From Paraphysoderma sedebokerense (taxonomy: Eukaryota; Blastocladiomycota; Physodermatomycetes; Physodermatales; Physodermataceae): 62,383 bases of DNA. The position numbers and the translations under genes are program-made. Of the stretch, positions 53,909-62,353 are shown piece by piece; the first letter of the stretch is position 1; each line of letters begins with the position of its first letter. Location of the stretch: positions 1 through 62,383 of the forward strand of contig JAHLJZ010000119.1 in the NCBI GenBank assembly GCA_025602915.1, read 5' to 3'. The notes beneath the pieces were generated by a model. It saw only the letters and a list, made by a program, of their open reading frames with translations, had not been told where the DNA came from and did no database searches.

Positions 53909-53957
53909 AATCGATATAGTTTTGCGTCAAGGCGAGTTCATAAAAGTCATGGCTTAA

Positions 53958-54039
53958 TTTTTATATCAACTCAATTTTATTCATTCGGTTGATTAGATAG
54001 ACCAGTTATATTGTATCATATATAATAAACTACACTTGA
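53958..54039. repeat. Direct repeat, copy 1, at the 3' end of the C1q-like gene
   Basis: About 82 bp starting TTTTTATATCAACTCAATTT and ending AATAAACTACACTTGA. It matches 54266-54351 with few substitutions and a small indel, and contains AATAAA-like polyadenylation signals. Probably the old 3' UTR of a duplicated gene. Confidence 0.8.
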
Positions 54040-54080: not shown

Positions 54081-54265
54081 AGTTATTTTTAATCACGTAT
54101 ATGCGGGGGTCAAGACGGGTCAAGACTATTTTGCTTGAATTATGTTTAATTGTGTTTACTTGTGAACGGTACGATTAAATTAAAATATAAAGTAAAAATG
54201 AAAACAGAAAAGACATATTGAACCGCTCCTATAAAACGCACGACAACTCGGACTTCGTTTGTGTA

Positions 54266-54351
54266 TTTTTATATCAACTCAATTTTATTCATTTGGTTGA
54301 TTCAAGAGACCAGTTATATTACATCATGTATAAATAATAAACTACAGTTGA
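54266..54351. repeat. Direct repeat, copy 2
   Basis: Second copy of the 53958-54039 sequence (TTTTTATATCAACTCAATTT at its start). It lies directly downstream of a promoter-like TATAAAACGCACGACAACTC (about 54232) with no C1q-like gene between, as if the gene had been lost from this unit. Confidence 0.8.
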
Positions 54352-54595: not shown

Positions 54596-56963
54596 TTATT
54601 GACCGAAACGAGTGTTTCTCAACCTATTGAAGAGAAGGGTAAGAGAGTCAGTACGTTGTTTGGATGAGAGAGTAAGAGAAAGGAAGCATCAAGTAACATA
54701 CCAGTCACTCAAAGTACCGGTAAAGTACAATCTACAACCGAAATTGTAGTTGAACAAGAACCCGATAGCAATGATCAAGTACATAATACCCCAGAGAGCA
54801 GGGATCAATTCCAAAAAGACAGTCAATCTGCTAGTTCTAGGTCTCACTTTTTCCATATCAATGACTGGGACACCGTATTTGTTGTAGCTCAATCTGCTCT
54901 TTCTGTCAACTTCCTTTTCGTCGAATAAGACGTAAATGACTGGTGCCATCATGGATTGCATGTTGAGGAGAACATAGAGAACTTGTGAGTAGTATTGGAA
55001 AGTGTTGACACAATCGTTTGGTTGCCATTGTAAGCCACGGTAAACGATAGCGGCGACACCGAGAGCAAGGTAGAGGATGTGGAACCAGCAAAGGAAAAGG
55101 GAGGAGAAGTTGGCGAGGCAAGAGTTTCGGTTCTTGGAGGCGTTGGTGACTTTGAATTTAGCAGGCATGATGCCAGAAGTCAAGAATTTGAAGAGAGCGA
55201 CACAGAGATAAGGAGCCATCCAAAGGAATTGCTGGAAATCTCGGTTTCGGGACATGGTGGGGGATTCGACGTTCCAGTACATGACGTAGATGACGAGACG
55301 AGTGGCGAAAAGATAAGGGACAAGGAGGAACATGAGAGTGCGAATATCACCAGCAATTGGCATGATGGGCTAAAAAGAAAGAGACAAGGTTGTTAGCAAA
55401 CTGTCTTCACATGTCATGAGACGAAAGTAGAAGAATCAACATACCCAGTCGAACAAGAGAGTCAAAAGAGGGATGACAGTGAACAAGACGATACCGATGG
55501 GCAAGATGTAAGAAACACCACAGCTGAAATACATAATTCTTTCGTGGAAGCTCATTTTGCTACGGCAGAAGAGAGGATTGCGTTTAAATAAAATTTGCAA
55601 GGTACCAATAGCCCATCGTTCACGTTGACGGATAGCGGAAGGCAAATCAGTGGGAACAAGACCGAATTGAAGTTTGGAGTTGATGTAAACAGTTTTATAT
55701 CCGAGACCGTGGAGTTTCATGGAAGTGTCAAAGTCTTCAGTAAGAGTACCAGTACTAGAGATGGTGAATGTGGCGTTAGTTTCATCTGATTTGATTCAGA
55801 GAGAGTTGTCACAACGGTTGCCCTTACCTAATACCACCAATGGATTCCAAAGCAGTGCGTCTAAAGATCACACCAGTACCAACACTAGGAGCGGAATTTC
55901 TGGTATCTCTTTGAGGCATGATGACATCGTAGAAGAAACTGCAAACTTGACCCAATGGATCACCATCCGGAACATTGTAATAGTATTGAGGGCATTGAAC
56001 GAAAGCAATATCATCGGTGACGAATTGAGCCAACATGGATCTCAAGAATTCAGGTTTTACAAGCATATCAGCGTCAAGGATACAGACGAATTGACCAGTA
56101 GTGATTCCGAGGGCGTGGTTGATATTACCGGCTTTAGCATGGTGAGGAACGTTGGGGAGTTTGTGACGGCGGATGTAACGGATATTGGTTCCGTTGACTG
56201 CTTGTTCGGTTTCAACCCATTCACGGAGGGCGTCATCTTTACCATCATCGAGGATGTAAATCTATTATTAATAAAGGAAAGAACAAAGAGTTAGCGTCCG
56301 TTGCTCCACTTCACGACGCCACAAAACTAAAAAGTTGGTGTGGCCAAGGAGTAGAGTGGGCCGCATAGCCGATATGATCGAAGAACTGCGATGCAATTGA
56401 GCCAACATATAAAAATTGTAGTTGGAGTAAAAGATGGAAAAACGGCAGAGGGGTGGCTCATCGAAAGACAGAAATCATGTCTCGAGAGCCGGGACCAAGT
56501 TGACAGACAATTGCCCAGTGTCAAGTTGGGGACTTTTTTAAAAAAAAAGAGGAATGGCACAGAAAAAAAGTGAGAAGAAGACTCTGTTTTAATATACGAC
56601 AATTACCATGAATTTATCGACTGGGTAGTCCTGCCACAAGGCGGTGAGGGCGGTGTCTTTGACGAGTTCAGTTGGTTCTTTACAGCAAGGAATGAATACA
56701 TCGACTGAAGGCCAGTCAAAGTGGGTTTGAACCGGCAAGATTTTAGGATTTCGTCTGCGGTCGTAGGTCCACAACATGTCGACGAACCACAGGACGGAGG
56801 AGAGGTAGAGGGCGAGTTCGAGGGAAACGAATATGTAAGGGATGACATTTGGAGATTGGACGAGGTATAATTGATAAATTCTCCAAGAGATGTAGGAAGC
56901 ACCTACGCCCGTGACGACGAGGGCCACGGCGCACTGCAACCAAAAGTTGAAGGTGAGGATCAT
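54596..56963 (-). CDS. Cellulose-synthase-like processive glycosyltransferase (GT2, BcsA type)
   Basis: A membrane synthase that would extend a beta-glucan from a UDP-sugar and export it. Start taken at ATG 56961-56963 (MILTFNFWLQCAVALVVTG). Two helices lead to DWPSVDVFIPCCKEP, then YILDDGKDD (first catalytic Asp), VCILDADML (DxD), LTEDFD (TED) and IRQRERWAIG (QxxRW). The C-terminal half has at least five more hydrophobic segments, including YILPIGIVLFTVIPLLTLLF and LVPYLFATRLVIYVMYW. The last intron (GTATGT donor, branch TACTGAC) adds LRNTRFGQ and TAA 54596-54598. About 670 residues. No PilZ-like domain was seen. Product could be cellulose, mixed-linkage glucan or mannan. The frame stays open upstream to 57512, so a longer start is possible. 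Confidence 0.85.
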
Positions 56964-57187
56964 GTAAGAGGGAGGGGGCGGAGGTAGATGATGGAGGAGA
57001 GATGGGGGAGGAGAGAGTTTATAAGAAGATGAAATGAAATAAGATAGAGTGACAGATGAGGAGCGGATGACGATGGAGGGAGAGAATAGAGAATGGTTGA
57101 ATAGTTTCCTGAAAGAGTAACGGAGAGGGAATTGCGGGGAATGGAGCTTGTCGTATGAAGATTCTCTGGCCATCCCCGTCCACTCCG

Positions 57188-57196
57188 GGTCACGTG
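57188..57196. promoter_or_regulatory. E-box GGTCACGTG, site 1
   Basis: GGTCACGTG followed by C. Palindromic core CACGTG, bound by bHLH factors such as Cbf1/Pho4/USF types. Confidence 0.55.
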
Positions 57197-57227
57197 CTGT
57201 AGCCCAAAATAGCCAAGGCAGCGGGCA

Positions 57228-57236
57228 GGTCACGTG
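57228..57236. promoter_or_regulatory. E-box GGTCACGTG, site 2
   Basis: GGTCACGTG followed by A, giving the fully palindromic TCACGTGA core. Located 40 bp from site 1. Confidence 0.6.
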
Positions 57237-57295
57237 AGCAGCTGACTGATGGGATGTGGTGGATCGGGCGGGAGAGAGTGGTGTGGATGACGGCG

Positions 57296-57304
57296 GGTCA
57301 CGTG
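57296..57304. promoter_or_regulatory. E-box GGTCACGTG, site 3
   Basis: GGTCACGTG followed by A, 68 bp from site 2. All three share the GG before TCACGTG, so the flanks as well as the core are conserved. Confidence 0.6.
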
Positions 57305-57577
57305 AGATGCTATTTTCAGGCAGGGATGACAATCGGATGGGCAGCAGACGGGCCAGCGTGTTGCTAAAAAAAGGCACAGCAGAGTTGCCCTGGTCTGTCT
57401 GGCCTGGGGATTGCCTGGATCGAAATTCCCTTCCCTCTTGCCAGTTGCCAGTCGCCAATTGGAATAGCTCATTCCGCTGTCCATCTGCCCTCCTGTCCTT
57501 CGCTACCATCACTTCATTAGACTCGCTCGCCCTCTCTTAAAGCCTCCACTCCCTCCTCTCTCAACACCCTCTCTCAC

Positions 57578-57610
57578 CCACAACTACTCACCCACAACTA
57601 CCACAACTAC
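57578..57610 (+). repeat. CCACAACTAC short tandem in the GH26 leader
   Basis: CCACAACTAC occurs three times in 33 bp (57578, 57592 and 57601), within a CT/CA-rich leader that ends 20 bp before the GH26 ATG. Unpaired leaders of this type suit strongly expressed genes. Confidence 0.6.
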
Positions 57611-57629
57611 TCACCCCTCTCACTAACAA

Positions 57630-59125
57630 ATGGGCAAGAAGGCCGCTCAAAAGACCCTCTTTGTCCTCTCCCTCTGCCTCGTCGCCCTCTCCATCGTCCT
57701 CCTCAACCTCGTCCTCTTCTACCAACCCCTCAGAGCAAAACTATTTCCTCCCCCTCCCGAAAACAATGGCAAGTTTCTTCCTTTCCTATCAGTCACTCAG
57801 TCACAAGCAAGCTACCTATAAATTTAATAAATGACTAATCTCATTTCATCCTTTTACTTTTTATAGTCGAAAACCCTGTTTTGCGAAAAGTTCTAAACCC
57901 CCAGAATATATCTGGTGTCTATTTCGGTGTCTCCCTAGACTGGACGGCCGGCGATACCCCCGTTCAGTTCAACGCTCGATTCGGTCGTCCCGCCGCCGTC
58001 TTTCAGTTCTTCGCTGAAATCCATGACCAAATTCAAAACATGACTGATCTCAAATACGTTGTGGACATGATCGCAAAGACCGATGGCATCCTCGCCTTGA
58101 CCATCATGCCCAAAAAGGGCTTTGAAGTCTTGACCGATGCCACTATTGATCAAACTGTTCGAACAATGGCCGAAATCAACCGCATAGGCATACCGGTGCT
58201 CCTTCGTTTCGGTCACGAAATGAACGGTAATTGGTATCCCTATGGTCAAAAACCACTGTTGTATGTTGAATGGTTTAGAAGATTTGCCGATGCAATCCAC
58301 AAAGGTGCTCCCCTTACTTATATGGTCTGGGCTCCAAACGTCGGTAAAGGTATGTAAAACTCGGGGCTCCTCTTAACATGTCAGATGTCATAGGCAGAAA
58401 CTAACATTCCTCAACTATAGGTTATCCTTGGTTTGGTCCCAACAACGGCAATCAACCACAACCTGGCTCTGCGGATTACCGTGCCATGGACACCAATTCT
58501 GATGGTGTCGTCAACAACGAAGACTCTCCATTTGCTCCATTCTGGCCCGGGGAACAATACGTTGACTGGATTGGTTACTCGACTTTCCACTTTGGTACCG
58601 CCGACAACCTTGCCGTCAACGCTTTATCTCCCGCCAGAGAATTCGAAGCCGCCATCGTCAACCCAACTGAGCGTGGTAGACAGTACAACATCTATACCGA
58701 CTACTCCCAAAGATTCAACAAGCCTTTTGCCCTCATGGAAACTGTAAGTACCTCGCCTTCATTCCTCGAATCCATTGACATTAGAACTCATCTGTACTTC
58801 TTATCACTATTGACAGGCCGCCGCCTACTATCCAAGATCTGTCACTCTCTCTTCTGATCCCAGCAACCTCGACATTAAGCGATCATGGTGGGGACAAATC
58901 TTCTCGACCACCACTCTCCGTCAGTATCCTCTCCTCAAGATAATATGTTGGTTCGACGTCGTCAAAGAAGAAGTCGTAAACGCCGGTGCTAGAGGAGAAC
59001 AAACCCTAGTACTGAGAGATTTCTCCGTCACGAGGGACCCCTCCATCCTAAAAGAATTCAAGGCCGACCTGGAACGAGCGCGCGTGTGGTTCGCTGATAC
59101 ACCTTTGGATCAAATTGAAAACTAG
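57630..59125 (+). CDS. Membrane-anchored GH26-type endo-glycanase
   Basis: Exons 57630-57768, 57867-58349, 58421-58743 and 58817-59125; TAG 59123-59125. The first exon encodes a short basic N-terminus and one helix (LFVLSLCLVALSIVLLNLVL), so a type II anchor with the enzyme outside or in the secretory lumen. The GH26 barrel shows ISGVYFGVSLDW, VLLRFGHEMNGNWYPYG (acid/base Glu), TYMVWAPNVG, YVDWIGYSTFHFG and KPFALMET (nucleophile Glu). An EF/dockerin-like loop, DTNSDGVVNNED, may bind calcium. GH26 members cut beta-mannan or mixed-linkage glucan. Intron 1 uses a GC donor (GCAAGT); it is the only donor that keeps frame. Confidence 0.85.
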
Positions 59126-61440: not shown

Positions 61441-62353
61441 ATTATTGCAAAATATTATCCAACTCCTAGATCGCCATCCTGAATTGTCAGATTTAATTAC
61501 ATTTATTTGGGCAAAGTTTTTTTGCAATGCAGTCGCACGAGGGCTGCTTACAACCAAGACAATTGGACTACCCTACTTCCATTCGCAGAATTCTCCTACA
61601 ACTCAAGCCTTCACTCCTCTACAAACCTCACCCCATTCGAAGTCAACTATGGTTTCAACCCAACTTTTGATCCCCGGCTCCTTCCTTCAAATCACTCACC
61701 GCATGCCAACGACTTCCACGAACAAATCAGAAAAACTCAACTTTTAGTGGTCCGTCGCTAATTAAGATCAGGCGCGTACTCAAAAGTTGTTCGCCGACAA
61801 GAAACGTCTTACAGCACCTCAATTCAAACCCGGCGACAAAGTCTGGTTACTCCGCAACAATATTCCAACTGACCGACCATCATCTAAACTGGATTATCGC
61901 CGCCTGGGACCCTACAAGATTCTCCAACAAATCAATCCAGTCGCCTTCAAACTCGAATTACCACCCAACGTCAAACTCCACCCTGTTTTTCACACTTCAC
62001 TTCTTCAACCATATCACCAAAACACCTTCAAAAACCGAAATCCCGAACCACCGCCCACAGTTTTCATCAACGGCGAAACACGTTACATCGTGAAAGACCT
62101 ACTCGACACAAAAATTGTCCGCAACAAACGGTATTTCCTTGTCGACTGGGAAGGTTACACACCCAATGATCGAACCTGGGAACCCGAATCCAACATTCCA
62201 AGCCCACTCCGACGCGAATTCCTTTCAACACACAAAGAGCGCCGAGGACGTCGCTCAAAGAGGAGGGCGTAATGTAAGGAATCAAGTGGAACAAGTAAAC
62301 CTCGTTAAGGAAAGTGTAAAACGGTTGTCATAATCTTTCTGTGACAAAAAGGT
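61441..62353 (+). mobile_element. Fossil Ty3/gypsy chromovirus, 3' part of pol plus LTR start
   Basis: The 3' end of a Ty3/gypsy LTR retrotransposon. Parts seen: the end of the integrase core (NWTTLLPFAEFSYNSS, LTPFEVNYGF), the GPY-type region (PGDKVWLLRNN, LDYRRLGPYKIL, LHPVFHTSLLQPY) and a C-terminal chromodomain (YFLVDWEGYTPNDRTWEPES), which places it among chromoviruses. A purine-rich stretch (AAAGAGGAGGGCG) precedes what looks like the start of the 3' LTR at about 62273 (TGTAAGGAATC). Gag, protease, reverse transcriptase and RNase H are absent. The copy is broken, with a few breaks; readable motifs suggest moderate age. Confidence 0.85.

Follow-up and report, generated by a model that had tools for sequence, protein, structure and literature searches.

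Two genes arranged head to head on contig JAHLJZ010000119.1 of Paraphysoderma sedebokerense (assembly GCA_025602915.1) encode a candidate polysaccharide synthase and a candidate polysaccharide hydrolase. The contig was analysed over positions 1 to 62,383 of its forward strand, and this whole stretch of 62,383 nucleotides is referred to as the window. The synthase belongs to glycosyltransferase family 2 and the hydrolase to glycoside hydrolase family 26; they are called GT2 and GH26 here. An initial annotation of the locus had proposed that the two form a synthesis-and-trimming pair and had counted the organism among the chytrids. P. sedebokerense is an aquatic fungus of an early-branching lineage. 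According to the NCBI taxonomy, it is placed in Blastocladiomycota, Physodermatomycetes, and does not belong to Chytridiomycota. Once spliced, both genes prove intact, with complete catalytic motifs, and the intergenic stretch that they share runs from ATG to ATG over the 666 bp originally described. The feature had been drawn from 54596 onward, but it begins at the stop codon of the GT2 gene (54689-54691). The parts of the locus are as follows.

54689..55369, minus strand: GT2 exon 4, C-terminal transmembrane part, stop codon at 54689-54691 (splice model and homologue alignment)
55445..55754, minus strand: GT2 exon 3, with TED at 55733-55741 and QRERW at 55613-55627 (splice model and motif residues)
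55828..56261, minus strand: GT2 exon 2, with DDG at 56241-56249 and DAD at 56067-56075 (splice model and motif residues)
56607..56963, minus strand: GT2 exon 1, ATG at 56963-56961, N-terminal transmembrane helices (splice model; start matches P0102-P0108)
56964..57629, no strand: intergenic region between the two start codons, 666 bp (both splice models)
57630..57768, plus strand: GH26 exon 1, predicted N-terminal membrane anchor, residues 9-25 (57654-57704), GC splice donor (splice model and hydropathy)
57867..58349, plus strand: GH26 exon 2, presumed acid/base Glu164 at 58217-58219 (splice model and homologue alignment)
58421..58743, plus strand: GH26 exon 3, EF-hand-like loop, residues 231-242 (58489-58524), and presumed nucleophile Glu314 at 58738-58740 (splice model and alignment)
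58817..59125, plus strand: GH26 exon 4, stop codon at 59123-59125 (splice model)

The four exons of the GT2 gene encode a protein of 593 amino acids whose start (MILTFNFW) and C-terminus agree with those of homologues P0102-P0108. The protein has the hallmarks of the cellulose-synthase superfamily. The D, DxD, TED and QxxRW motifs are found as DDG (residues 124-126), DAD (182-184), TED (269-271) and QRERW (307-311) in a GT-A domain lying between transmembrane helices. Pfam matches were obtained with PF13632 (1.3e-27) and PF03552 (2.3e-27), and no PilZ domain was among the Pfam hits up to E 0.1. The sequence matches in the PDB numbered 16, of which 14 were cellulose synthases or CslF6 and two were chains of one archaeal GT2, a mannosyltransferase by its structure title; none was a chitin or hyaluronan synthase. 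The predicted model matched, in order of Z, the folds of BcsA, CesA, CslF6, HAS, and Chs1. Sequence search and fold comparison both place the protein nearer to cellulose and glucan synthases than to chitin and hyaluronan synthases. A chitin or hyaluronan synthase is disfavored, as neither family gave a PDB sequence match and both stand lower in the fold ranking. No other GT2 of this kind was found in the P. sedebokerense genome. The GT2 is not the sole beta-glucan synthase of the species, because the genome also has an FKS locus.

The GH26 gene likewise has four exons, the first intron having a GC donor, and encodes 417 amino acids. A database protein (P0001) is identical to this prediction over its full length. 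Assignment to the family comes from a PF02156 match above the cut-off (8.5e-8; 32.3 bits versus a cut-off of 20.2), an HE motif, and two catalytic glutamates, Glu 164 and Glu 314, which had been noted before and are invariant among 17 homologues. The anchor is a hydrophobic segment at residues 9-25 found with a simple hydropathy window, and a cleaved signal peptide is also compatible with it. The predicted GH26 model matches the folds of a lichenase and of beta-1,3 or mixed-linkage xylanases slightly ahead of those of mannanases, and identity to the lichenase CtLic26A of Clostridium thermocellum is ~21 percent. Unlike CtLic26A, the P. sedebokerense GH26 is predicted to be anchored and carries an EF-hand-like loop within its catalytic domain. 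This loop is present in 15 of the 17 top hits and in none of 84 others. It sets apart a GH26 group common to zoosporic fungi and mostly Actinomycetota.

Evidence that the two genes belong together comes from other Blastocladiomycota. In Blastocladiella emersonii, the best homologues of GH26 (H9P43_007395) and GT2 (H9P43_007394) lie on the same contig of 1,742,282 bases, and in Sorochytrium milnesiophthora the best homologues (RI367_002159 and RI367_002158, respectively) lie on the same contig of 636,351 bases. The consecutive locus tags indicate that the genes are neighbors in both species, although such tags do not show gene orientation. Both species are Blastocladiomycetes, so the linkage spans both named classes of the phylum. 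In all, linkage was found in three of the six named Blastocladiomycota that have the GT2, P. sedebokerense included. The P. sedebokerense assembly (27.3 Mb) holds at least ten distinct GH26 genes, and among these only the linked one adjoins the single GT2. In the subfamily phylogeny, a check that the initial annotation had called for, the linked GH26s of the three genera and an environmental protein (P0004) formed one clade (100/99) without the nine other P. sedebokerense copies. Judged from this tree, the linked GH26s of P. sedebokerense, B. emersonii, and Sorochytrium are orthologues. As a side observation, one GH26 match was found twice in the assembly on opposite strands, on contigs C129 (L093) and C154 (L094), perhaps as a duplicated assembly segment or an allele.

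Does the pairing occur outside the fungi? Bacterial and archaeal genomes scanned with a GH26 profile yielded at least 309 confirmed relatives, and the best 80 loci were used. A cellulose-synthase-like GT2 (E below 1e-30) was present at 22 of these. In 21 of the 22 it lay no more than 1.5 kb from a GH26 domain, compared with a mean of 5.0 and a maximum of 12 under random placement (5000 runs). Some loci carry more than one GH26-like domain; when only the strongest domain was counted, 16 of the 22 were within 1.5 kb and 20 within 3.5 kb (random placement at 1.5 kb: mean 4.2, maximum 12). The near clade had a GT2 neighbor at 9 of its 39 loci, or 6 by the stricter count. Eighty genomes from the family of one such bacterium gave 15 GH26 matches in 11 genomes, and three of these matches, one being the seed itself, had a GT2 in the 4-kb stretch. 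Furthermore, GT2 and GH26 are fused in a single open frame in L078 (12126-14963), P0225, P0230, P0239, and P0257; the GT2 frame of L066 matched only GT2 families in Pfam. These neighbors and fusions support a functional coupling of GT2 and GH26. Their recurrence also means that such a pairing is not peculiar to eukaryotes.

No published function for the bacterial neighbors and fusions was found in the literature searched. The nearest description is that of the wps-1 exopolysaccharide cluster of Actinoplanes missouriensis, where genes of both families likewise occur together (PMC13390465). The same 2026 paper states that no Wzx/Wzy cluster involving GH26 had previously been characterized. However, wps-1 is described there as Wzx/Wzy-dependent and not as a lone processive synthase with its hydrolase.

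The descent of the GT2 was followed in two trees. A quick tree included 97 of 139 rows and had long branches. A careful tree included 58 of those 97 and omitted P0113, 14 bacterial partner GT2s of 12 other loci, L042, and unnamed rows. In the careful tree, one clade (100/99) comprised nine sequences, of which six came from named Blastocladiomycota. Its sister group consisted of one Mesotaenium, two Closterium, and two metagenomic proteins (100/98). An ascomycete clade with the Aspergillus fumigatus protein P0172 branched next, and the 33-row group as a whole was supported at 100/99. We infer that P0172 is Tft1 because only one A. fumigatus protein was reported to resemble CslF/CslH (PMC4344333) and because, within the best 120 of 2161 hits, no protein other than P0172 bore the name A. 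fumigatus. A clade of Blastocladiomycota and ascomycetes alone was rejected (p-AU 5e-8, for groups chosen after the quick tree), and the GT2 did not group with the ascomycete Tft1/CelA proteins to the exclusion of other lineages. In other words, it shares a wider lineage with the ascomycete proteins named in the initial annotation but is sister to zygnematophyte proteins. The annotation had also cited CelA and Tft1 as two systems; A. nidulans celA and A. fumigatus Tft1 are orthologues (PMC5519750).

The Blastocladiomycota GT2s (P0103-P0109) are closer to those of zygnematophytes (P0111, P0114, and P0115) than to the ascomycete Tft1 type. A study of zygnematophyte genomes describes a streptophyte clade, CslO, that is close to the fungal Tft1 clade, with a possible transfer from fungi (PMC9915684). 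On the basis of the tree, the algal closeness of the Blastocladiomycota proteins may go back to a gene passed between an early fungus and algae, in either direction. In both trees, the bacterial partner GT2s fell in clades apart from the fungal GT2. The pairing therefore probably arose more than once, and transfer of a ready-made pair from bacteria is unsupported.

How might the two proteins work together? The fungal linkage suggests a division of labor, with one enzyme synthesizing a wall polymer and the other trimming it. The reading that we prefer, with a probability of roughly 0.55, is that the two genes form a conserved wall-polymer module in which GT2 makes a beta-1,3;1,4- or beta-1,4-glucan and an anchored GH26 trims it. 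As a processive enzyme of the cellulose-synthase fold, GT2 would use a UDP-sugar, most likely UDP-glucose, and would extrude the chain through its own channel in the plasma membrane. GH26 would be held in the same membrane by its N-terminal anchor with the catalytic domain outside. It would cut the emerging chain and so set its length or release stalled chains, as BcsZ does beside BcsA. We infer the anchor topology, membrane location, substrate, linkage type, cutting step, and shared regulation of the pair. The glucan type is suggested by the presence of a mixed-linkage synthase in the GT2 lineage and by the nearest folds of GH26, which act on mixed-linkage or beta-1,3 polymers; these are two independent leanings, and neither is proof. 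That both enzymes act on one polymer is probable, and the choice of mixed-linkage glucan as that polymer is tentative; both gradings are judgements. The beta-1,4 or mixed-linkage pair of the initial annotation is favored by the linkage, the GT2 matches, the position near the Tft1 lineage, and the GH26 fold; its polymer and both enzyme activities are presumed.

This module resembles known systems in part. In bacterial cellulose operons, the BcsA synthase is found beside the BcsZ endoglucanase (GH8), which acts on the BcsA product. Like BcsA, the GT2 is of the processive type with D, DxD, TED, and QxxRW, has a BcsA fold, and is genetically tied to a hydrolase presumed to be outside. Unlike that system, its hydrolase is an apparently anchored GH26 where a GH8 partner would be expected, and the GT2 itself has no PilZ hit and groups with eukaryotic proteins. 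The idea of a eukaryotic BcsA/BcsZ analogue with another hydrolase family is apt as an analogy with GH26 as the partner, but it does not amount to membership, and the pairing is bacterial as well. We are aware of no earlier account of a processive synthase whose cognate hydrolase is a GH26. Family-8 cellulases are reported to occur in cellulose operons (PMC5070118). The GT2 is also like Tft1/CelA in being a fungal GT2 of the same wider lineage. Tft1 is required for 1,3;1,4-glucan in A. fumigatus, and the accounts of it, in the parts available, mention no linked GH26 (PMC4344333; PMC5519750); the Blastocladiomycota proteins differ further in their grouping with those of zygnematophytes. The bacterial neighbors and fusions have a similar GT2 beside or joined to GH26, but these GT2s belong to other clades. 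In a search of open-licence papers, neither the fungal pair nor a synthase module of GT2 and GH26 was found to be described. A bolder proposal, which we regard as rather doubtful, is that GT2 and GH26 are a recurrent synthesis-and-editing module invented several times, as the bacterial neighbors and fusions and the Blastocladiomycota pair would suggest. Its fungal version would make mixed-linkage glucan and edit it by means of a membrane-anchored lichenase dedicated to the task, a member of a new GH26 subfamily whose mark is the EF-hand-like loop.

Some findings weigh against a conserved linkage. For Allomyces, Catenaria, and B. britannica, which have the GT2, neither protein search returned a GH26, so that the linkage expected by the initial annotation was seen in B. 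emersonii and S. milnesiophthora and not in these. A review table seems to list two GH26 genes for Allomyces (PMC6690862), and a different or badly annotated GH26 is therefore possible there. No GT2 was present in the stretch covered at 58 of the 80 bacterial GH26 loci.

Of the alternatives, the one that fares best, though still unlikely, is that the pair acts together on another polymer (beta-mannan, glucomannan, or beta-1,3-xylan), GH26 being a mannanase or xylanase. The top fold match of the GH26 model is a beta-1,3-xylanase, and profile comparison ranks lichenase first with mannanase close behind. Two Synchytrium homologues bear the database name mannan endo-1,4-beta-mannosidase. A published GH26 tree places the characterized mannanases all in two large branches and other activities in small ones (PMC6556568). 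However, the fold and tree position of GT2 point to glucan synthases, and mannanases stand below lichenase and xylanases for the GH26 model. Somewhat less likely is that GH26 digests host or substrate walls and that its proximity to GT2 is an old, functionally neutral linkage. P. sedebokerense parasitizes green microalgae (PMC7912770) and has at least nine other GH26 genes, and the bacterial loci with no GT2 in the stretch covered fit this view. But the linked GH26 has a predicted anchor, is orthologous across three genera, and alone lies beside the single GT2, and chance does not explain the bacterial clustering and fusions. Least probable is that the GT2 product is plain cellulose, of use to cysts or resting stages alone, and that GH26 acts on it as a quality-control endoglucanase in the manner of plant KORRIGAN. 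The best fold matches of GT2, BcsA and CesA, and the thick-walled resting cysts that P. sedebokerense forms (PMC10537327) count in favor of this last alternative. Against it stand the tree position of GT2 in the wider lineage of the ascomycete proteins and the listed GH26 fold matches, which are xylanases, a lichenase, and mannanases, not a cellulose-specific GH26.

The wall glucan of blastocladiomycetes is poorly known. According to one review, the sole wall analysis, made in Allomyces, found glucan without confirming its linkage (PMC7389562), and in the studies covered by another, no wall-modifying beta-glucanase was found in Blastocladiomycota (PMC6690862). The pair offers a candidate for a synthase and another for a remodelling enzyme, both open to testing in yeast and in vitro. 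The bacterial neighbors and fusions make the idea of pairing checkable in easily grown organisms.

The region between the two genes contains one repeated motif.

57189..57304, plus strand: three copies of GTCACGTG, at 57189, 57229, and 57297 (motif count versus shuffles)

The window has four copies of GTCACGTG, whereas shuffles had a mean of 1.22 and reached four in 4 of 100. Genome-wide, spaced pairs of the motif gave 33 matches, some overlapping or repeated on other contigs, versus 0 for the reversed control. These matches rule out a promoter motif specific to the pair. The spaced pairs at many other sites of the genome mark it as a general element in P. sedebokerense, and from its distribution it looks like a common regulatory site of the species.

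The surroundings do not suggest a larger wall-gene cluster. A Pfam scan of 20 other open frames, among 58 listed in the window that also take in parts of the pair, returned no glycosyltransferase or glycoside hydrolase family. Matches above the cut-off were a nucleoporin, homocysteine S-methyltransferase, queuine tRNA-ribosyltransferase (two frames), WDR36/Utp21 (two frames), the C-terminal part of an acyltransferase, and an SH3 plus chromo domain of Tf2 type. An L-type lectin was among the weaker hits, and seven frames were without any match. There were no tRNA or Rfam matches in the window. Downstream of the GT2 gene lies a 69-bp direct repeat (53957-54025 and 54265-54333) whose copies are 90 percent identical and 308 bp apart. 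The Tf2-type SH3 and chromo domain, at 61766-62269 at the end of the window, resembles the end of a retrotransposon integrase.

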